A stretch of 64,000 nt of DNA from Pseudomonas fluorescens (GTDB taxonomy: Bacteria > Pseudomonadota > Gammaproteobacteria > Pseudomonadales > Pseudomonadaceae), in the NCBI RefSeq assembly GCF_902497775.2, contig NZ_OZ024668.1:2813826-2877825 (forward strand), written 5' to 3'. The notes below the pieces were generated by a model. It was given only the letters and a program-made list of their open reading frames with translations. It was not told the origin of the DNA and searched no databases. The first letter of the stretch is position 1. The number at the start of each line of letters is the position of its first letter. Positions 18,269-27,510 of the stretch are shown in pieces. Made by a program: the position numbers and the translations under genes.

Positions 18269-18748
18269 ATGAGCCTGACCATCCGCCCCGCCCGGCGCGA
18301 CGACGCCGCCCAGATCCTCGCCTTCATCACCGAACTTGCCGACTACGAACGCGCCGTCCACGAGGTGATCGCCTCCCAGGCCGATATCGAGCGCACCCTG
18401 TTCGACGACGGCGCCAAGGCCCTGAGCCTGATCTGCGAGCGCGATGGCCAGGCCATCGGCTATGCGGTGTACTTCTACAGCTACTCGACCTGGCTTGGGC
18501 GCAACGGCATCTACCTCGAAGACCTGTACATCACCCCTGAGCAACGCGGTGGCGGCGCCGGCAAGCAGCTGCTGCGCCATATCGCCATCGAAGCCTGCGA
18601 GAACGGCTGCGGGCGCCTGGAGTGGAGCGTGCTCGACTGGAACGAGCCGGCCATCCAGTTCTATAAGTCCCTGGGCGCCCTGCCCCAGGATGAATGGGTG
18701 CGCTACCGTCTTGAAGGCGCCGGCCTTGAGGCTTTCGCCCGCGGTTGA
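18269..18748 (+). CDS. GNAT N-acetyltransferase, diamine/polyamine (SSAT-like) type
   Basis: A 159-residue GNAT enzyme. The acetyl-CoA loop is visible as YITPEQRGGGAGKQLL (motif A), followed by WSVLDWNEPAIQFYKSLGA (motif B). The run YSTWLGRNGIYLEDLYI and the WNEPAIQFY segment are shared with spermidine/spermine N1-acetyltransferase-like proteins, so an amine substrate is likely. The ATG at 18269 starts the conserved SLTIRPA; the 11 extra upstream codons look non-coding. Confidence 0.82.
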   Translation: MSLTIRPARRDDAAQILAFITELADYERAVHEVIASQADIERTLFDDGAKALSLICERDGQAIGYAVYFYSYSTWLGRNGIYLEDLYITPEQRGGGAGKQLLRHIAIEACENGCGRLEWSVLDWNEPAIQFYKSLGALPQDEWVRYRLEGAGLEAFARG

Positions 18749-18825
18749 GTGGCTGGGCAAAGGTGGCGCGATCGGCTAAGGTGCGCGCCTTGCCCTACTC
18801 TCGCCTTGCCAAGGAATGCACTGAA

Positions 18826-19647
18826 TTGAAGGCTTTACTTCGCTCCCTCCCGGTACTGTGCCTGGGACTTGCCCTGACCGGCTGCAGCCTCACCCCCGCC
18901 GACCCGGTGAGTTTCAAAGAAAATGGCCTGTATGGCTTTAAAGACGCCAGCGGCAAGGTCATCGTGGCGCCCTCCATCGACCTGCAACCGACCTTCCACG
19001 AAGGCATGGCCGCCGTGCGCATCAACAACAAATGGGGCTTCATGGATCGCAACGGGAAGCTGGTCATCCCGACGATCTACACGCGCCCCGGGCATTTCAA
19101 AGATGGCCTGGCAGGCGTCTGCCTGTCGTCTTCCGAATGTGGCTACATCGATGCCCAGGGGCGCACCGTGATCCCCTTCGATTATGACTGGGTAGAGAGT
19201 TTCAGTGACGCCCAGGACGGTTTGGCGGTGGTCGCCAAGAACAACCGGTACGGCATGATCAACCGCAAGGGCAAGCAGGTTATCCCCCTGCGTTTCAGCT
19301 CCCGGCCCCTCACCGATAAGGGCCTAGTGTTGCTAAACGACAGTGACAGCGACAAAAGCGGCCTGATGAACACCGCCGGCAAAGTCGTGCTGCCCTTCGA
19401 ATACGACGCCATCGCCTACAATACCTGGGGCGGGCGGCTGGTCAACGACGGTCTGCTGAGCGTGGCCAAGGAAGGTAAATGGGGCTTCGTCGATCTCTCC
19501 GGCAAGCTGGTGCTACCGTATATCTACGACAGCCGGGCCTTCTTCCGTGACGGCCAGGCCATCGTAAAACGTGACGGCAAGCATTACCGGATTGACCGCA
19601 AGGGCAATGAAACGCCCTTGGAATACGAGCCGTTGAAGCTACCCTGA
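18826..19647 (+). CDS. WG-repeat lipoprotein
   Basis: A 273-residue secreted lipoprotein. Starting at TTG 18826, the N-terminus KALLRSLPVLCLGLALTGCS is a standard lipoprotein signal with lipobox LTGC (C20). The mature part is built of about six WG/KWG-type beta repeats (NGLYGFKDASGKVIV, NKWGFMDRNGKLVI, SECGYIDAQGRTVI, NRYGMINRKGKQVI, GKWGFVDLSGKLVL). AAGGA lies ~10 bases upstream of the TTG; longer in-frame starts would bury the signal peptide. WG-repeat proteins are common but of unknown function. The gene precedes the gluzincin/MBL pair by ~45 bp and could be expressed with it. Confidence 0.8.
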   Translation: MKALLRSLPVLCLGLALTGCSLTPADPVSFKENGLYGFKDASGKVIVAPSIDLQPTFHEGMAAVRINNKWGFMDRNGKLVIPTIYTRPGHFKDGLAGVCLSSSECGYIDAQGRTVIPFDYDWVESFSDAQDGLAVVAKNNRYGMINRKGKQVIPLRFSSRPLTDKGLVLLNDSDSDKSGLMNTAGKVVLPFEYDAIAYNTWGGRLVNDGLLSVAKEGKWGFVDLSGKLVLPYIYDSRAFFRDGQAIVKRDGKHYRIDRKGNETPLEYEPLKLP

Positions 19648-19691
19648 CTGCAGTTCCGCTGATGTAAGCCTGGTGCACAGGAGCGTTGCCC

Positions 19692-21425
19692 ATGGTCGTG
19701 AAAGCCAACACCCAGACCTTCACCATCCTCGCCCAGGACCCGGCGGTACGTAATGCCCGCGGCGAGCTGCTGTTCGCCCGGGTCAGCGTGCCGCTGGAAA
19801 CCCTCGGCCTGGGCCCCACCGGCTACCGCCTGAAGGTGGTCGACTTCGATGCCTCGCGCAACCAGCTGTACCACGCCCACGCCTACCAGCAGGACGCCAC
19901 CAGTGGTGCGATGGTCGACCCCTTCGATCCGCCCGGCGAGGCGCTGCTGGGCAATCCGGCATTTCATTGCCAGCACGTCTACGCGGTGGTCATGCGTACC
20001 CTGGCGCGCTTCGAGATGGCCTTGGGGCGCCGGGTTGGCTGGGGCTTCGAAGGGCATCAGTTGCACGTGGTGCCGCACGCCTTCGTCGAGGCCAACGCCT
20101 TTTATTCACGGGCTGATCGCGCCTTGATGTTCGGCTACTTCAAGGGCCTGGACGGCCAGCACGTGTTCACCTGCCTGTCCCACGACATCGTCGCCCACGA
20201 GGCCACCCACGCGATTCTCGATGGCTTGCGCGGCGGCTTCATGAATGCCTCGGGGCCGGATCAGGCCGCCTTCCACGAAGGCTTTGCCGACGTGGTGGCG
20301 CTGCTGTCGGTGTTTTCCCTGCGCGAAATCATCGAGTTCGCCCTGACCAATGGCGAACGCATCGAGCTGACCGTGCAGGGCGAGCGCCGGCTGCTCAATG
20401 GCGATCAACTGAGCCCACAGAACCTCGCCGAATCGCTGCTGTTCGGCATCGGCGAAGAGTTCGGCCAACAGCTTGAAGGCCTGCGCGCCAATGCCCTGCG
20501 CCGCTCAGTGATGCTGGCGCCGTCGGCCGATTACTTGAGCGACGAGCAGTTTGCCCAAGCCCACAACCGCGGCGAAATCTTCGCCGCCGCCATGCTGCGC
20601 AGCATGCTCGCCCTGTGGGTGGCGCGCCTGGGCGAGCTGGGCAATTTTGGCGACAACCTGTACAACCTGCGTGAAGTGGTCGAGGAAGGCGCCAAGGCCG
20701 CCGACCAGCTGCTGACCATCGCCATCCGCGCCCTGGACTACTGCCCGCCGCTGGACCTGGAGTTCGGCGACTACCTGGCCGCCCTGCTCACCGTCGACGC
20801 CCAGGTGGCTCCGGACGATTCGCGCTACGACTACCGGCTGATCATCCGCACCACCTTCGAGGCCTTCGGCATCGTCCCGCCAGCGGCGCGCACCGACAGC
20901 GACGGTTGCTGGCACGGCTTTGCCGACAACGGCCAGGTGCAGTACCGCAACAGCCATTTCGACTCGATGCTGCGCGACGACGAAGAGGTGTTTCGTTTTC
21001 TCTGGGAGAACCGCGCGGCGCTGGGTATCGACGAGCGCGCCTACACCGAGGTGGTGTCAGTGCGCCCGAGTATCCGCCTGGGCACCGACGGCCTGCTGCT
21101 GCGCGAAAGCGTCTGTGAATACATCATGAAGGCCAACATTTTTGGCGCCGAACTCAAGAGCGTGTGCAACATCAGCCCGCGTCCGGCCTGGATCAAGACC
21201 ACCGACGCCCTCACCGTGTATGGCGCCGGTACGCTGATTTTCGATCAGTACGGGCGCATCAAGTACCACGTCCAGCGCCCGCTCAATGACGGCCAGTGGC
21301 AGCTGCGCCGCTTGAGCTACCTGGCCGGCCTGGAAACCAGCGAGCTAGACCTGCGCAACCCGCTGGCCCAGTTGCATCGCCAGCGCGCCTGGCAGGTTGG
21401 GCCACTGCGCGAGGAGCAAGCATGA
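19692..21425 (+). CDS. Gluzincin (thermolysin-like) metallopeptidase
   Basis: A 577-residue protein with a zinc-peptidase core: HEATH at 169-173 (zinc ligands H169, H173; general base E170) and FHEGFADVVAL at 194-204, where E196 is the likely third ligand, as in thermolysin and M36-type gluzincins. There is no signal peptide or propeptide, so it is probably cytoplasmic. Residues ~390-577 form an extra domain of unknown kind. The ATG at 19692 is supported by AGGAG eight bases upstream. Its stop overlaps the ATG of the MBL gene (ATGA), so the two are translationally coupled and likely form one functional unit. Substrate unknown. Confidence 0.8.
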   Translation: MVVKANTQTFTILAQDPAVRNARGELLFARVSVPLETLGLGPTGYRLKVVDFDASRNQLYHAHAYQQDATSGAMVDPFDPPGEALLGNPAFHCQHVYAVVMRTLARFEMALGRRVGWGFEGHQLHVVPHAFVEANAFYSRADRALMFGYFKGLDGQHVFTCLSHDIVAHEATHAILDGLRGGFMNASGPDQAAFHEGFADVVALLSVFSLREIIEFALTNGERIELTVQGERRLLNGDQLSPQNLAESLLFGIGEEFGQQLEGLRANALRRSVMLAPSADYLSDEQFAQAHNRGEIFAAAMLRSMLALWVARLGELGNFGDNLYNLREVVEEGAKAADQLLTIAIRALDYCPPLDLEFGDYLAALLTVDAQVAPDDSRYDYRLIIRTTFEAFGIVPPAARTDSDGCWHGFADNGQVQYRNSHFDSMLRDDEEVFRFLWENRAALGIDERAYTEVVSVRPSIRLGTDGLLLRESVCEYIMKANIFGAELKSVCNISPRPAWIKTTDALTVYGAGTLIFDQYGRIKYHVQRPLNDGQWQLRRLSYLAGLETSELDLRNPLAQLHRQRAWQVGPLREEQA

Positions 21426-22708
21426 ACCCGACCAGCCTGACCCTCTATGCCTACCAGGTCGGTTTTGGCGACTGCTTCCTGCTGCGCTTCAACTACCCAG
21501 GCGGGGTGCGCCGCCACGTGCTGATCGATTTCGGGTCCATGGGCATGCCCAAGGGCGTCACCCAGGGCCAGCGCCTGCTGGCGATTGCCCAGGACATTGA
21601 AGCCAAGTGCGCGGGCAAGCTCGATGCGGTGGTCGCGACCCACCGCCATGCCGACCATATCAGCGGCTTTGCCCGCAACCGCGCCGGCACCGCCAGCGGC
21701 GATGTGATTCGCCGCCTGGCGCCGCAGTTGGTGCTGCAACCCTGGACCGAACAGCTGGAGCTCGCTGAAGACGCCAGCGCCCCCGAGCAACCCGGCCTGC
21801 GCGGTGCACGCAGCATGGCCCAGACCCTGCAGAGCATGAATGCCCTGGCCAGCGCCGTGGTCAAACTGCTCGACCAAGGCAGGCATGGGCTGTCCGAGGA
21901 ACTGGCCAGGCGCCTGGGGTTTATCGGCGAAGACAACATCTCCAACGCCAGCGCCGTGAACAACCTGGCGAGCATGGGCACACGCAACGCCTATGCCTTC
22001 TTCGGCAGCGAGGATGCCCTGGCTGAGCTGTTGCCCGGTGTGCGCACGCATATCCTCGGCCCGCCCACGGTCGAGCAAAGCGCTTCGATCCGCAAGCAGC
22101 GCAGCCGCGACCCGGCCGAGTTCTGGCACCTGCACCGGCAGTTGCTCGATGCCCAGGTCAACCCACCGGACGATGACCCGGGGCCCTTTGCCGACTACCC
22201 GGCGACCCGTGGCAGCAAGCTGCCGATGAGCACCCGCTGGATCGCCCGGCGGGTGCGCGAAGCCCGTGGCGAGCAACTGCTGCAGATCGTCACGGCGCTG
22301 GACAAGGCCATGAACAACACCAGCCTGATCCTGCTGTTCGAGGTGGCAGGCAAGAAGCTGCTGTTCCCGGGCGATGCGCAGATCGAAAACTGGAGTTATG
22401 CCCTGAGCCACCCGGAAATTCGCGCGCTGCTGGCGGACGTCGACCTGTACAAGGTCGGCCACCATGGCAGCCTCAATGCCACGCCGAAAAGCCTCTGGGG
22501 CGGCTTCAGCAAGCGCGGCAAGGCCGGTACGCCGCAGCGCCTGACCAGTGTGCTGTCGACCATGCCCGGCAAGCACGGCAACCCCGAGGCCGGCACCGAA
22601 GTACCGCGGCGGCCATTGCTGGAAGCGCTGGGCAAGGAGAGCGAGTTGCACAGCACCGATGGCTTGGGCGCCGGGGTGTTGTGTGAGGAGATCGAGATCA
22701 GCTTTTGA
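21422..22708 (+). CDS. MBL-fold hydrolase (ComEC-like metallo-beta-lactamase domain)
   Basis: A 428-residue metallo-beta-lactamase-fold protein. The metal motif THRHADH is at 73-79, with the later GDAQIENW and KVGHHGS motifs typical of the ComEC-type beta-lactamase subgroup. No membrane segments are present, so only the soluble hydrolase domain exists. The middle (~130-290) is a family-specific insertion. Such domains often act on phosphodiesters or nucleic acids, but the substrate here is unknown. It overlaps the peptidase gene by 4 bp. A fragment of a diverged copy of codons ~321-337 lies at 26583-26632. Confidence 0.8.
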   Translation: MNPTSLTLYAYQVGFGDCFLLRFNYPGGVRRHVLIDFGSMGMPKGVTQGQRLLAIAQDIEAKCAGKLDAVVATHRHADHISGFARNRAGTASGDVIRRLAPQLVLQPWTEQLELAEDASAPEQPGLRGARSMAQTLQSMNALASAVVKLLDQGRHGLSEELARRLGFIGEDNISNASAVNNLASMGTRNAYAFFGSEDALAELLPGVRTHILGPPTVEQSASIRKQRSRDPAEFWHLHRQLLDAQVNPPDDDPGPFADYPATRGSKLPMSTRWIARRVREARGEQLLQIVTALDKAMNNTSLILLFEVAGKKLLFPGDAQIENWSYALSHPEIRALLADVDLYKVGHHGSLNATPKSLWGGFSKRGKAGTPQRLTSVLSTMPGKHGNPEAGTEVPRRPLLEALGKESELHSTDGLGAGVLCEEIEISF

Positions 22709-22752: not shown

Positions 22753-22832
22753 CTTTTTGCTACCATCGTGCTTCCCGCTCACTTACGGCCCTTGCTCATG
22801 TCGCCTGCCGCGCCCCCGGAAAAGCCCATCCT
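22753..22832 (+). pseudogene. Remnant of the AraC-gene 5' end (duplicated)
   Basis: This stretch matches the promoter region and first codons of the AraC gene at 26694-26762. Both begin ctttttgctaccatcg and continue through cttcccgctca, the ATG (22798 versus 26737) and ccggaaaa-cccatcct. Small indels separate the copies. After ~12 codons homology ends and the frame continues as unrelated sequence, so this is a truncated copy. Confidence 0.75.
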
Positions 22833-22897: not shown

Positions 22898-25800
22898 TCA
22901 GGTGGGTTGTGGAGTCTCCTGAACGGCCTGCTCAGACAGCTGGCTCAACTGCGCCTGGCTGGCGGGGGTGGAGTAGGTGAGTTGGCCGTTGAGGCTGGGG
23001 GGAGCATTTCCGCCATACAGTGAATTGCCCCAGGCAACTACGCGCTTATCTGCAGTCAGTGCTGCGAACCCGAAGAAATTAGCGTACACAGCCTGCACGT
23101 TAACCAACTGTCCGACAAGCGTTGGCGGAATAGCTCCACCTAGATGGGCGGCTCCCCAACTGCGAACCTGACCATCGCTGAGCAGCACAGTAAAAGCGCC
23201 TAGGGAGGCAACCAGTTGAACAATATTCTTCAAGCTGGCGATCTCGTCCGGCAAGATTCCCCCAGCGACCCTCCCCCATGCTTTTACACTGCCATCACTG
23301 CGCACTGCAGCAAAGGCTACGCCCGCTCCTCGTATGTCGATAAAGTCATTGATTGGAACCAGTTCAACGGGCAAGCCTATCCCCCACGACTGGACTTGGC
23401 CGTTCGCGCGTAAAACGGCGAATCCATGACCTGCGGCCGCGACCCGAACAACGTCGGTCAACCGAGCAATATCTTCCGGCAAAATGCCGCCATAGTCAGC
23501 GGCCCCCCAAGCCCTCACCTGGCCAGTACGACGCAAGGCTGCAAACGCAAGTCCATTGGCACACACATCGACAATATCGGTCAATTGGGCGATGTCTGCA
23601 GGTACGTCGCCATAATATCCCCAACCCACAACATGACCACTAGCTCTTCGTGCCGCAAAAGATGCCCGTCCGCCGTACAACTCCACCACATCCGTGAGCG
23701 CAACAATGGGGGCAGGTGGTAGATCTCTACCCCAAGCCTGTATCTTGCGTTGCGCTGTTAAAGCAGCCATGCCGTAGTATGTGCCAATGGCCTGAGTGAA
23801 GTTACCACTCAAACTAAGTGGGTTGCTCCCCCAGGTAACCAGCGCCCCATTAGCACGTCGAGCAACCATCGCCCAGTCCCCCCCCACCACCGCCACCGCA
23901 TCACGTACCTGAGCCGCCACAGGCGAAAGCACGCCACCGTTTAATGGAGCACCCCAGGCGATCATCGAACCGCTATCGGTGATTGCAGTATATGAATAGG
24001 GATTGGCTCCAATATTGGAGCGATTGACCAACGTGAGAGAACCTGCAGTTTCCGTCCATACGTACAGCAGCCGCGAAGGTGCCTGATCAAGGAAATGCAT
24101 GCCCACCTGCGGTTCAGTGTCCCCGTCATAGCGCCAACGCGCTTCAATGGGTTGCAATGAAACAGTATCCACTGCAACCAGCAGACGTTTCATGCTGTAA
24201 CCCCAGTCGACACCGCCAGAACCACTCCGCGCCCCCATCACCTTGGGAATCCCGCTCGCAATCAACTTACCTACGTTGAACCCACGCACCGCCGACTCAA
24301 ACACCTCGCCATCACGCTCGACCGTATAATCCAGGGTCACACTGCCCTCCTGATTGAGCAGCACCACCTCCCGCTCGATCGTCTCCCGGTAAACCTCACC
24401 CACTTCATCTGTCCGTACCGTGCGGCTCTTGCTCACTGAGCCAGCCCCTTCAGCACCGCGCCAGTACACCGTGACCACATCATTCACACGCAAGCCGGCC
24501 TCCACCCCAATGGTGATCGTCGCGCCACTGGGGACATTGATCGGATCAAGCCCGTCGCCCTCGGCCTCGACAATACCAGGGGCGGGAAAGCGCAATCCTG
24601 CCTCGCCGATGTACAGGGTCAAGGTGTCGGAATAGCGGGGACGCTGGTTATCCTCGACGACCGAGTAACTGATCTGGACCTCGTCGCCCAGGCTGGGGAG
24701 GATTTCGCTTACCGGCACAGTAAAGACTACTTCAGGCACTACTTCGGGAACGGTGATCTCGTCGGTATAACTGCCCCAGGCCAGGACCAATTTCTGCCCC
24801 TGGCGCATGCCGTCGTAGAGGAAAATGCGCACCGTGGCCACCAGCCGTCCTTCGGGGTCCCACGCACCGTTGTCGACATCGTCCACGCTCGGCGCCGCCA
24901 GTTCCGCCACCGCCTCACCGACGTACAGGCCCAGCCGTTGCGACTCTTGGTATTGGCCGCTGGAGTAGATGACCCGGTAGAACACTTCAAGCGTACCGCC
25001 ATCGAGCAGGGCTATATGATCTGCCTTCACCTCCACCACCAGCGGCTGACCTAGCTGGTTGTTATTGCTGATCAAGCGATGCGCTTCATGTAGGTACGGC
25101 CGCTGATCCGCACGTATGCCATGCCAGACCACCACCACCCGCTGCCCGACCGCCATGCCGGCATAGGCCGGCACAATCACATGCGCCCGGGGCAGGTCGG
25201 CAGGTAGATGCTGCTCCACCGCCTCGGCCACGGTCGGGGCGGCCAGCCCCAGGTTCACGCCCCTGACCCCGACCGTGGTGCGCTTGGAAGGAATCACGCC
25301 CCCCACCCCTTTGTCCAGTTCATAGGACACAAAGGCCATGCCTTGGGCAATCGCTGCAACGACAGCATTGGGAATACTGAACGGTGCCAGATGAGGGAGT
25401 CGCGTAAGGATGAAAGGCTCCGGTTCAAACGGCGCTATACCACTCCCCTCTTCGGTAAACCCTCGCCACTTGACCTGGATCCGGTCGTTCACGGCAAAAC
25501 CGGTTGCCCGTGAGGCGTAGACCTGCACCGTCACATCCGCCCCCTCCAGTTGCGCCAGATCGACGTAACCTTCATCGTCGGCTTCTGCGATCAGTGGCGG
25601 ATCGAGGCGAAAGCCACCCGCCTCCACCTGCGCATGGCTGTGTAGCGACCAGCCATCCGAAAAGTTACCGACCTCATCGAGCAACTGGTACACCACCGCC
25701 AGCTCATCGGAGTCGCCCGCTTCAATGATGGTGTCGTAATCGACGACGATCTCGATCAGCTTGCCCACTTCCTGCGCCTGGACTTCATGGCCCACGATCA

Positions 25801-26428
25801 CTCCACCCCAGCTCAAGCGTACGGTGTCGCGCACGGCCATGTTCAGCCAAGGGAAGATATACACCTCCACGCCGCGCCGGGCGTACTCTTCATCGATGAG
25901 CTCGACCGGTACATCCGGCGGGACCAGCCCGTAATGACCTTCCAGGTCGGGCCGGGGGTCCGGCCCGCCTGGCAGCGCGCGCTTGGTCTTGAGCAGCAGG
26001 CGTCCCGAGTCGGCTTCATCGCCACTCAGTGCCTTGACCTGAAACCAGACCTGCGCGACGCCATTCGGGATGTTTTGTGCTGGCACGTAGAGGTACAGCA
26101 ACTTATTCAGGTCGTCCCGTTGCACCACATAGGGAACAGGTGTGGCCGCCTGCTCCGGATCGCCCCAGAATACGCGTACTTCATCGCCTGGGGCCATTTG
26201 CAGGTACGGCTCCACCAGTACCAGCAAACCATTGGGGTTGGTTTGCAACACGGCAGCAGTGATCCCGCCATCCAAACCGTCCGGGTGATCGAACAACTCG
26301 GTCATGTAGGGAATGCGAACATGACTGTTTACGATCGACTGGATCTGCTCAACGCGCAGGTACCAGGGGCTGGGATCTTCGTCGGGGAGCAGTGGCGTAA
26401 CAGCTGGGAACGGCGAGTCCTGATTCAT
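22898..26428 (-). CDS. Large beta-rich protein with RCC1-like C-terminal repeats
   Basis: A 1,176-residue protein without a visible signal peptide. Residues ~30-770 consist of about six tandem ~110-120-residue Ig-like/beta units sharing patterns such as VPAYAGMAVGQRVVVVWHG, FPWLNMAVRDTVRLSWGG and FLYDGMRQGQKLVLAWG. From ~830 to 1150 come seven to eight RCC1-like ~45-residue units ending in WG (ALRRTGQVRAWG, VLRANGQVQSWG, AVRSDGSVKAWG, LLSDGQVRSWG). Related repeat proteins occur scattered in fluorescent pseudomonads; function is unknown, with surface or secreted effector roles possible. The RCC1 half is visibly less GC-rich than its neighbours. The gene lies between broken copies of flanking genes, a sign of insertion. 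Confidence 0.75.
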   Translation of the reverse strand: MNQDSPFPAVTPLLPDEDPSPWYLRVEQIQSIVNSHVRIPYMTELFDHPDGLDGGITAAVLQTNPNGLLVLVEPYLQMAPGDEVRVFWGDPEQAATPVPYVVQRDDLNKLLYLYVPAQNIPNGVAQVWFQVKALSGDEADSGRLLLKTKRALPGGPDPRPDLEGHYGLVPPDVPVELIDEEYARRGVEVYIFPWLNMAVRDTVRLSWGGVIVGHEVQAQEVGKLIEIVVDYDTIIEAGDSDELAVVYQLLDEVGNFSDGWSLHSHAQVEAGGFRLDPPLIAEADDEGYVDLAQLEGADVTVQVYASRATGFAVNDRIQVKWRGFTEEGSGIAPFEPEPFILTRLPHLAPFSIPNAVVAAIAQGMAFVSYELDKGVGGVIPSKRTTVGVRGVNLGLAAPTVAEAVEQHLPADLPRAHVIVPAYAGMAVGQRVVVVWHGIRADQRPYLHEAHRLISNNNQLGQPLVVEVKADHIALLDGGTLEVFYRVIYSSGQYQESQRLGLYVGEAVAELAAPSVDDVDNGAWDPEGRLVATVRIFLYDGMRQGQKLVLAWGSYTDEITVPEVVPEVVFTVPVSEILPSLGDEVQISYSVVEDNQRPRYSDTLTLYIGEAGLRFPAPGIVEAEGDGLDPINVPSGATITIGVEAGLRVNDVVTVYWRGAEGAGSVSKSRTVRTDEVGEVYRETIEREVVLLNQEGSVTLDYTVERDGEVFESAVRGFNVGKLIASGIPKVMGARSGSGGVDWGYSMKRLLVAVDTVSLQPIEARWRYDGDTEPQVGMHFLDQAPSRLLYVWTETAGSLTLVNRSNIGANPYSYTAITDSGSMIAWGAPLNGGVLSPVAAQVRDAVAVVGGDWAMVARRANGALVTWGSNPLSLSGNFTQAIGTYYGMAALTAQRKIQAWGRDLPPAPIVALTDVVELYGGRASFAARRASGHVVGWGYYGDVPADIAQLTDIVDVCANGLAFAALRRTGQVRAWGAADYGGILPEDIARLTDVVRVAAAGHGFAVLRANGQVQSWGIGLPVELVPINDFIDIRGAGVAFAAVRSDGSVKAWGRVAGGILPDEIASLKNIVQLVASLGAFTVLLSDGQVRSWGAAHLGGAIPPTLVGQLVNVQAVYANFFGFAALTADKRVVAWGNSLYGGNAPPSLNGQLTYSTPASQAQLSQLSEQAVQETPQPT

Positions 26429-26582: not shown

Positions 26583-26632
26583 ATCGATAACTGGAGTTAT
26601 GCACTGAGCCATCCGGACATTCGCGCGCTGCT
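26583..26632 (+). pseudogene. Remnant of the MBL hydrolase gene (duplicated fragment)
   Basis: Fifty bases match 22382-22431 inside the MBL gene with four mismatches (core aactggagttatgc). They would encode IDNWSYALSHPDIRALL instead of IENWSYALSHPEIRALL. Similarity stops abruptly on both sides. With the AraC remnant at 22753 it frames the RCC1-like gene. Confidence 0.75.
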
Positions 26633-26736
26633 CCCACAATGCAATTGCGTGCACCGCCCCTGAAGCTGGCTTGCCAGCGAACAGAGTGCCCCCCTTTTTG
26701 CTACCATCGCGCTTCCCGCTCAACACGGCCCTGCTC

Positions 26737-27510
26737 ATGTCGCCCCCGGAAAAACCCATCCTCACCCTGGCCGAAAACTACCGCCACGGCGAACGCATTG
26801 CGGCCCACTGTCACAATCGCGCGCAGTTGATCCACGCCCTCAGCGGGGTGATCACGGTCAACTCGCTGCAGGGCAGTTGGGTGGTGCCGCCGGGGCGTGG
26901 GGTGTGGGTACCGACGGCGGTCGAGCACGACTTGAAGATGGCCGGCGCCGTACGCATGCGCACCCTGTTCATCGACCAGAAAGCCCGCACCGACCTGCCG
27001 CAGGATTGCCAGGTGGTCGACATCTCGCCACTGCTGCGCCAGTTGATCATCAGTGCCATGGACATACCCGCCGACTACCCACCAGGCGGGCGCGACGAAC
27101 GGTTGATGCAGCTGATCCTCGATGAAATCCGTGTGCTGCCGATCCTGGCCCTGCATGTACCCACGCCGCGCGACCCGCAACTGGCCGAGCTGTGCCAGGC
27201 CCTGCGCGATGCGCCCAGCGAAGACTGGAACCTGGCACGCGCCGGCCGCCTGCTCGGCACCAGCGCCCGCACCCTGACCCGGGCCTTTCAGCGCGAGACC
27301 GGCCTGAGCTTCATCCAGTGGCTGCGGCGCATGCGCCTGCTGGCCAGCCTCGACTCCCTGGCCGCCGGGCATCCGATCCTCGATGTGGCGCTGGACCTGG
27401 GCTACGACAGCCCCAGCGCCTTCAGCGCCATGTTCCGCCGCACCCTCGGGGTATCGCCCTCGGCCTACTTCGGCAAGGCCCAGGCCTATGGCGCGGCGCA
27501 GACCGACTGA
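26737..27510 (+). CDS. AraC-family regulator with cupin N-terminus (NimR-like)
   Basis: A 257-residue regulator. The N-terminal cupin-like part (RHGERIAAHCHNRAQLIHALSGV, PPGRGVWVPTAVEHDL) is followed by two helix-turn-helix units (ARAGRLLGTSARTLTRAFQRETG and ILDVALDLGYDSPSAFSAMFRRTLG). The arrangement matches the NimR/YdeO-like group, which often control adjacent efflux pumps. It converges directly on the DHA2 pump gene, with no base between the stops. ATG 26737 begins the conserved SPPEKPIL; the ribosome site is poor. A truncated copy of its 5' end is at 22753-22832. Confidence 0.85.
   Translation: MSPPEKPILTLAENYRHGERIAAHCHNRAQLIHALSGVITVNSLQGSWVVPPGRGVWVPTAVEHDLKMAGAVRMRTLFIDQKARTDLPQDCQVVDISPLLRQLIISAMDIPADYPPGGRDERLMQLILDEIRVLPILALHVPTPRDPQLAELCQALRDAPSEDWNLARAGRLLGTSARTLTRAFQRETGLSFIQWLRRMRLLASLDSLAAGHPILDVALDLGYDSPSAFSAMFRRTLGVSPSAYFGKAQAYGAAQTD

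Follow-up and report, generated by a model that had tools for sequence, protein, structure and literature searches.

Gated metallo-beta-lactamase (MBL) pro-nucleases that are opened by trypsin-like proteases or caspases have recently been described (Tuck et al., 2025, PMC12799240). In these systems, each of two insertions is cut by the partner protease on the far side of a conserved isoleucine, which frees the DNase; in Canu the conserved residue at the insertion sites is glycine, and the published protease-MBL pairs operate by activation. The trypsin-MBL examples include HamM with protease-HamA in Hachiman, Avs1a with Avs1b in AVAST, and pairs in Lamassu and DRT (PMC12799240). Here we analyzed a window of 64,000 nucleotides (the whole stretch of DNA under study, positions 2,813,826 to 2,877,825 of contig NZ_OZ024668.1) of the Pseudomonas fluorescens genome, which is one contig of 5.97 Mb. 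In this window, a gene for a thermolysin-type (gluzincin) metallopeptidase is directly followed by a gene for a ComEC-like MBL-fold hydrolase. Systems of this general kind, in which a protease accompanies a gated MBL pro-nuclease, are already known. The combination with a gluzincin is without description in the titles and beginnings of abstracts searched, among which subscription journals were mostly uncovered; the words “metalloprotease,” “thermolysin,” and “M48” are absent from the main text of PMC12799240, which refers to other protease families in a figure and a supplement. Hence, the statement of the initial annotation that no known system of this composition was recognized holds for the combination and not for the general kind.

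The pair shares with the trypsin-partnered nucleases of Hachiman, AVAST, Lamassu, and DRT a ComEC-like MBL with two insertions, an adjacent protease gene, and mobility between loci and defense contexts. In the published systems, a core defense protein carries the trypsin-like protease as a fused domain, whereas the window encodes a thermolysin-type zinc metalloprotease with weak M36 and M4 matches only; in addition, the protease gene comes first, the pair includes no sensor protein, and the insertions carry conserved aromatic residues instead of isoleucines. Canu (CanABC) resembles the pair in having a stand-alone protease gene upstream of a two-insertion MBL nuclease. However, one gluzincin stands here in place of the caspase-like CanA and CanB, the module has two genes only, the flanking genes scanned encode proteins with WG and RCC1 repeats, respectively, the gate residues differ from the glycine of Canu, and the insertions are longer than those of two Canu-type loci of Pseudomonas. 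These two loci were assigned by their gene order (caspase-like, middle gene, MBL; L116:8076-11907 and L117:9564-12956); L117 exceeds the Pfam gathering score for the caspase match, which L116 narrowly misses, and a PADLOC model labelled LmuA matches their MBL proteins at 206-231 bits. The third comparable arrangement, E2-ThiF-JAB and MBL genes with the PADLOC label PDC-M48B (L118), also places an insertion-bearing MBL beside a predicted metallopeptidase domain, but that peptidase is of the JAB type and lies within a ubiquitin-like conjugation protein. The label itself was ruled out as a sign of an M48 peptidase partner, because the model matches an MBL of L118 (514 bits) beside the E2-ThiF-JAB gene; M48B is therefore read as a candidate-series label and not as peptidase family M48. 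What the pair does have in common with gated MBLs is intact ComEC-like motifs, two insertions between motifs 2 and 4, and an adjacent, co-evolving protease gene.

Our analysis indicates that the peptidase-MBL pair is real and old. In a tree of 51 peptidase-like proteins, the 37 scoring above 150 bits with the profile formed one clade (support 100/97). The clade comprises 7 Pseudomonas loci, 21 plasmid loci, 8 loci of other genomes, and L061, and is a non-random sample, in which three loci come from nearly identical species and the plasmid loci are mainly the better matches. Outside the 37 stand a pair on a 3.2-kb contig (G130), duplicate loci (L026 = L003), and weakly matching homologues beyond the pair clade that have no MBL (L068-L072, L076, L077, L087-L089, and the viral L091, L092, L094, and L095). 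An MBL gene lies immediately downstream on the same strand in 34 of the 37 loci. A start was assigned to 31 MBL genes, and for 30 of them it falls -10 to +13 nucleotides from the peptidase stop, with an overlap in 19; this spacing is biased towards small values by the rule that the start nearest to the peptidase stop was taken, with ATG preferred. Peptidase and MBL distances correlate over 27 loci (r = 0.88, a value reached by none of 5,000 permutations), and shared species history contributes to this correlation. In the window, both frames are open and the peptidase stop and the MBL start share the 4-bp ATGA overlap (21422-21425) that had been noted initially. Both genes are under purifying selection relative to the copies of P. 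donghuensis (L003), with ratios of nonsynonymous to synonymous substitution rates (dN/dS) of 0.067 for the peptidase and 0.107 for the MBL.

The pair is patchily distributed. The peptidase was found in 7 of 149 Pseudomonas genomes, all seven of which also gave an MBL match; an eighth genome (G004) had a weak MBL match only. By identity, four of these peptidases count as close (69-100%), and three are distant (40-41%) and occupy other loci with different neighbors. One scan yielded two named close relatives, P. donghuensis HYS and P. wadenswilerensis CCOS 864, with peptidases 97% identical. Profile searches were positive for 1 of 244 genomes of the order (the window's own), 5 of 369 of the class, and 13 of 398 of the phylum; each count takes in the window's own genome, and that of the phylum takes in ordinary M4-like enzymes. 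Among plasmid records, the peptidase query (P0001) matched 81 and the MBL query (P0002) 30, all contained in the 81. The best places of the two queries were at most 5 kb apart on one strand in 29 of the 30 records; in the exception, NZ_CP006879.1, they were 32 kb apart, with two places per query. Twenty of the 24 opened P0001-positive records contained the pair and four did not (L062 and L087-L089). The hosts include Rhizobium, Agrobacterium, Bradyrhizobium, Methylorubrum, Paraburkholderia, an Isosphaeraceae planctomycete, Hymenobacter, and Deinococcus, so that the pair spans Pseudomonadota, Planctomycetota, Bacteroidota, and Deinococcota. The adjacency that the initial annotation had proposed to follow across genera was kept across genera and phyla; instead of a pair confined to close relatives, or of lone homologues in housekeeping settings, we found a pair of which many plasmid copies lie among defense genes. 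The sole P0001 match among 50,697 phage records, L061, contains the pair and was not counted as a phage gene, since its neighbors look bacterial. Viral contigs gave no match with the MBL profile. With the peptidase profile, five of them (two identical in the stretch fetched) gave remote homologues without an MBL (L091-L095, 66-92 bits), whose adjoining genes look common to the contigs.

The MBL alignment comprised 28 non-redundant partners, from which the split genes of L055 and L065 had been removed beforehand, and residues T73, H74, H76, D78, H79, D318, H347, and H348 are invariant in all 28. Genes lying in two frames, either decayed or affected by sequencing errors, occur among the MBL genes (L055:9595-11126 and L065:10892-12653) and the peptidase genes (L062:7797-9723 and L067:8815-10583). 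The MBL protein of the window matches Pfam Lactamase_B_2 under the threshold (E 2e-5). Its top PADLOC match is the model labelled LmuA (E 4e-17), followed by Avs1a, RTasMBL, and PDC-M48B; with the Avs1a model NF041809 it reaches 48.8 bits and not the curated score of 420. The match to ComEC/Rec2 (TIGR00361) is confined to the MBL part of the 428 amino acids and amounts to 20.8 bits vs. a curated 190. A sequence search of solved structures with the MBL profile gave nothing convincing (best E 0.05).

This MBL carries extra sequence relative to ComEC. The distance from motif 2 to the NxxS strand is 188-270 amino acids in ten MBLs of the pair, compared with 145 and 161 in the Canu-type nucleases and 62 in a ComEC-like protein of the window's genome, the one reference against which the insertions were defined. 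The extra sequence forms two blocks at the same two places in the pair MBLs and in the two Canu-type nucleases, and is longer in the pair. Only five insertion columns reach at least 80% identity, counted over the rows of the 28 with a residue in the column: F167 (23/27) and Y191 (25/28, aromatic in 28/28) in insertion 1, and P255 (27/27), F256 (26/26), and W273 (23/28) in insertion 2. Each insertion has its own conserved residues, F167/Y191 and P255-F256/W273, in place of the isoleucine or glycine of the published gated MBLs, and these would be candidate cleavage sites. In a smaller alignment, the Pro-Phe of the L061 MBL was out of register.

In the peptidase, H169, E170, H173, E196, and H291 are invariant in all 37 related proteins, all of which have the HExxH motif and the downstream glutamate, the presumed zinc ligand, of gluzincins; the intact metal motifs reported for both proteins were located and found to be conserved. 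His291 presumably occupies the position of thermolysin's second catalytic histidine. The motif, the glutamate, and this second histidine are shared with the M4 and M36 families (thermolysin and fungalysin). The matches to M36 (E 4e-4, 20.2 bits; gathering score 23.3) and M4 (E 0.01, 16.7 bits; gathering score 22.4) nevertheless fall short of the gathering scores, a signal peptide is not apparent, and the C-terminal 178 amino acids, scanned alone, matched no Pfam family. No match was obtained with NCBIfam, scans recognized no sensor domain, and a sequence search of solved structures with the peptidase profile gave nothing convincing (best E 0.14). By a motif screen, a subtilisin-type domain is located N-terminal to the peptidase in nine of the 37 relatives; it is supported by a Pfam S8 match in L023 (E 1e-23) and by S8 annotation of four further relatives.

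Comparison of related Pseudomonas loci revealed a variable slot behind a GNAT gene that was itself found in 96 of 99 genomes of the genus. The P. donghuensis locus (L003) has the WG-repeat lipoprotein, peptidase, and MBL genes between a GNAT and a TetR gene, with 4,056 bp separating the ends of the GNAT and TetR matches; in genome G089 (L124), 107 bp separate these ends, which represents an empty site. Another genome (G096, L123) has the lipoprotein after the GNAT gene and no pair, and still another (G009, L025) has the pair and no lipoprotein. This differing gene content argues for a variable slot in which the lipoprotein is a separate passenger. The lipoprotein was accordingly rejected as a third component (no WG match at E 1e-8 occurred in the other pair loci searched); the gene that the initial annotation had placed upstream is present, at a gap of 44 bp, without being a member of the unit. 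The unit is closed in the window; elsewhere further genes lie close by, encoding a Tle1-like lipase (L051), a patatin (L056), or an amidase-patatin fusion (L022).

Many plasmid relatives have defense genes within 8 kb of the pair, namely cyclases of the cyclic oligonucleotide-based antiphage signaling system (CBASS; L051 and L056), a Gabija-like (GajB-like) helicase (L052), SIR2 proteins (L058), E2-ThiF-JAB (L060), and HamA and HamB upstream (L078). At E 1e-10, 238 PADLOC models were matched among 141 neighbors and 8 among 63 control proteins, a rough comparison in which families and not genes are counted and related models match the same gene. The neighbors were hand-picked annotated genes of 17 plasmid loci (of 143 listed, one internal-stop gene and one further gene were omitted; cut genes, some short genes, and one very long gene were never on the list), and the controls were genes from other regions of two of those plasmids. 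On the Rhizobium plasmid locus L078 (3831-10987), HamA, HamB, an S1/P1 nuclease gene, and a divergent peptidase-MBL pair follow one another on one strand; this may be a variant of Hachiman that includes a metalloprotease-nuclease pair. In a Pseudomonas species (L022:8179-14516), the pair is followed on the same strand by a 261-amino-acid protein of unknown family and the amidase-patatin fusion; in L085:7869-13817, a divergent pair is followed in a row by an S1/P1 nuclease, a trypsin-like protease, and a DNA/RNA non-specific endonuclease. The suggestion that the pair belongs to a conflict system draws support from the genomic context of many plasmid relatives, but the pair's own surroundings in the window are no defense island as far as examined; this interpretation of the initial annotation is partly supported.

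With roughly even confidence, we propose that the pair is a mobile defense module of the abortive-infection type, in which the metalloprotease opens a gated MBL nuclease during phage infection. The overlap and spacing point to co-translation of the two proteins. The MBL would be made as a pro-nuclease, the two long insertions covering its active site, as the architecture suggests. A signal of infection would activate the cytoplasmic metalloprotease, perhaps through its uncharacterized C-terminal region, and the activated enzyme would cut the insertions. Thermolysin-type enzymes favor bulky hydrophobic residues after the cut, which makes cutting at the conserved aromatic residues plausible. By analogy with the published precedent, the freed ComEC-like DNase would then destroy phage and host DNA and kill or arrest the cell. 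From the close, conserved, and co-diverging pair with its catalytic motifs and insertion architecture, the patchy occurrence with an empty site, and the defense neighbors of many plasmid relatives, we infer that the MBL is gated, is cleaved, and acts as a DNase, and that the pair responds to an infection trigger and protects against phage; the likeness to the published gated pro-nucleases appears close.

Several observations weigh against the gated-nuclease proposal. By eye, the neighbors in the window include no defense genes, and some relatives lack defense neighbors, e.g., L082, which is located beside cytochrome oxidase genes. No constant sensor gene was recognized near the pair, and the peptidase matched no PADLOC model. 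Insertions also occur in MBLs with other partners: the two MBLs flanking the E2-ThiF-JAB gene of L118 have 143 and 147 residues between motif 2 and NxxS, and three more ComEC-like MBL proteins have 99, 147, and 164. Judging from these sequences, the presence of such insertions does not single out nucleases partnered with trypsin-like proteases or caspases. Moreover, substitution is slower in the insertions than in the core (dN/dS 0.06 vs. 0.14, window vs. L003), which does not suggest freely disordered loops; together with the occurrence of insertions in MBLs with other partners, this means that insertions alone are no proof of proteolytic gating. The conserved Pro-Phe may equally serve as a plug or an anchor instead of a cleavage site. 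AlphaFold models of both proteins, built with the close relatives L003 and L004, are of low confidence (mean predicted local distance difference test scores 35.4 and 36.0). Finally, the loci without an MBL (L062, L073, and L074) form one sub-clade (support 100/100). An N-acetylmuramoyl-L-alanine amidase gene lies upstream of the peptidase in L062:4490-9723 and L074:343-5103, perhaps reflecting another partnership of the same peptidase family, and in L062 a caspase domain is fused to the amidase.

Among the alternatives, the one that survives best, although still unlikely, is that the two enzymes are parallel effectors with a common trigger and no mutual cleavage, the peptidase cutting host or phage proteins and the MBL cutting nucleic acid or a nucleotide signal. 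The same adjacency and defense-context data fit this explanation, as do the other hydrolases at some loci (four Tle1-like lipases, three patatins, and two S1/P1 nucleases among the 141 neighbors); these hydrolases, however, are inconstant, whereas the MBL is constant (34/37), and the insertion architecture is readily explained by cleavage. We give only a slight chance to an extension of the gated-nuclease proposal, in which the gluzincin is the hub of a proteolytic cascade: the N-terminal subtilisin-type fusion present in some branches would sense infection and switch the gluzincin on, and the gluzincin would open several pro-effectors, the gated MBL first and, where present, the neighboring amidase, patatin, and Tle1-like lipase. 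If true, this would be a multi-step, metalloprotease-driven pathway of bacterial death, running alongside the trypsin and caspase pathways and distinct from them.

The lipase, amidase, patatin, and cell-wall hydrolase genes near several loci also resemble secreted sets, so that export of both proteins as antibacterial effectors, e.g., by a type VI secretion system, instead of a defense inside the cell, was considered. It is improbable: no signal peptide is evident, VgrG, PAAR, and Hcp are absent from the 25 most frequent of the 116 neighbor Pfam families, and no constant third gene was seen as a possible immunity gene. The lack of a secretion signal, as initially reported, was reproduced by crude hydropathy only (values of 1.13 for the peptidase and 1.05 for the MBL, compared with 2.03 for the lipoprotein). 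Still more doubtful is an antitoxin-like arrangement, in which the peptidase restrains the MBL by turnover and a loss of its activity frees the nuclease; the close spacing and the position of the peptidase gene in front would suit it, but the conserved insertion sites would be unneeded, and published protease-MBL pairs act by activation (PMC12799240). An ordinary metabolic or DNA-uptake role of a cytosolic peptidase beside a ComEC-like hydrolase, in keeping with the housekeeping-like flanking genes and with how common peptidases of this superfamily are, is the least probable explanation, given the low count within the genus (7 of 149 genomes), the location of the three distant copies at other loci, the empty site, the plasmid-borne relatives, and a separate 749-amino-acid ComEC-like frame, recognized by eye, in the genome.

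Table 1. Features of the peptidase-MBL locus and of the adjacent lipoprotein gene (window coordinates).
Feature	Position	Strand	Remarks
WG-repeat lipoprotein gene, outside the module	18745..19647	+	Ends 44 bp before the peptidase gene
Shine-Dalgarno-like AGGAG before the peptidase start	19679-19683	+	
Thermolysin-type (gluzincin) metallopeptidase gene	19692..21425	+	577 amino acids; ATG 19692, stop ends 21425; frame open
HEATH zinc motif, peptidase residues 169-173	20196..20210	+	
Glu196 codon, presumed third zinc ligand, within HEGFAD	20277..20279	+	Kept in 37/37 related peptidases
His291 codon of the peptidase	20562..20564	+	Kept in 37/37 related peptidases
Shine-Dalgarno-like GAGGAG before the MBL start, inside the peptidase gene	21411..21416	+	
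ComEC-like MBL-fold hydrolase gene, proposed gated pro-nuclease	21422..22708	+	428 amino acids; ATG 21422, stop ends 22708; frame open
THRHADH, MBL motif 2, residues 73-79	21638..21658	+	T73, H74, H76, D78, H79 kept in 28/28
Insertion 1 relative to ComEC, ~residues 113-206, with Phe167 and Tyr191	21758..22039	+	
Insertion 2 relative to ComEC, ~residues 215-292	22064..22297	+	
Conserved Pro255-Phe256 of insertion 2 (candidate site for cleavage, plugging, or anchoring)	22184..22189	+	
GDA, MBL motif 4 (Asp318)	22370..22378	+	D kept in 28/28
HHGS, MBL motif 5 (His347-His348)	22460..22471	+	Both His kept in 28/28

Downstream of the pair, the RCC1-repeat gene (22898-26428, minus strand, 1176 amino acids) has a G+C content of 0.57-0.62 in 1-kb windows vs. 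~0.65. It lies between two duplicated fragments, one taken from the MBL gene (22382-22431 and 26583-26632, 92% over 50 bp) and one from the sequence ahead of an AraC-family gene (22753-22832 and 26694-26762, 81% over 80 bp). The stretches fetched from P. donghuensis and P. wadenswilerensis contained no RCC1 match. The region looks like an insertion with duplication.

Overall, if the gated-nuclease proposal is right, a zinc metalloprotease would be the third class of protease, beside the trypsin-like proteases and caspases, to have been recruited to switch on a gated DNase, and the view of the gated nuclease as a general plug-in of bacterial immunity would gain support. The conserved sites in both insertions open the gating to direct testing. 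As a two-gene module without an evident sensor, the pair would be a compact system for learning how infection is sensed, with the C-terminal region of the peptidase as the first place to look.

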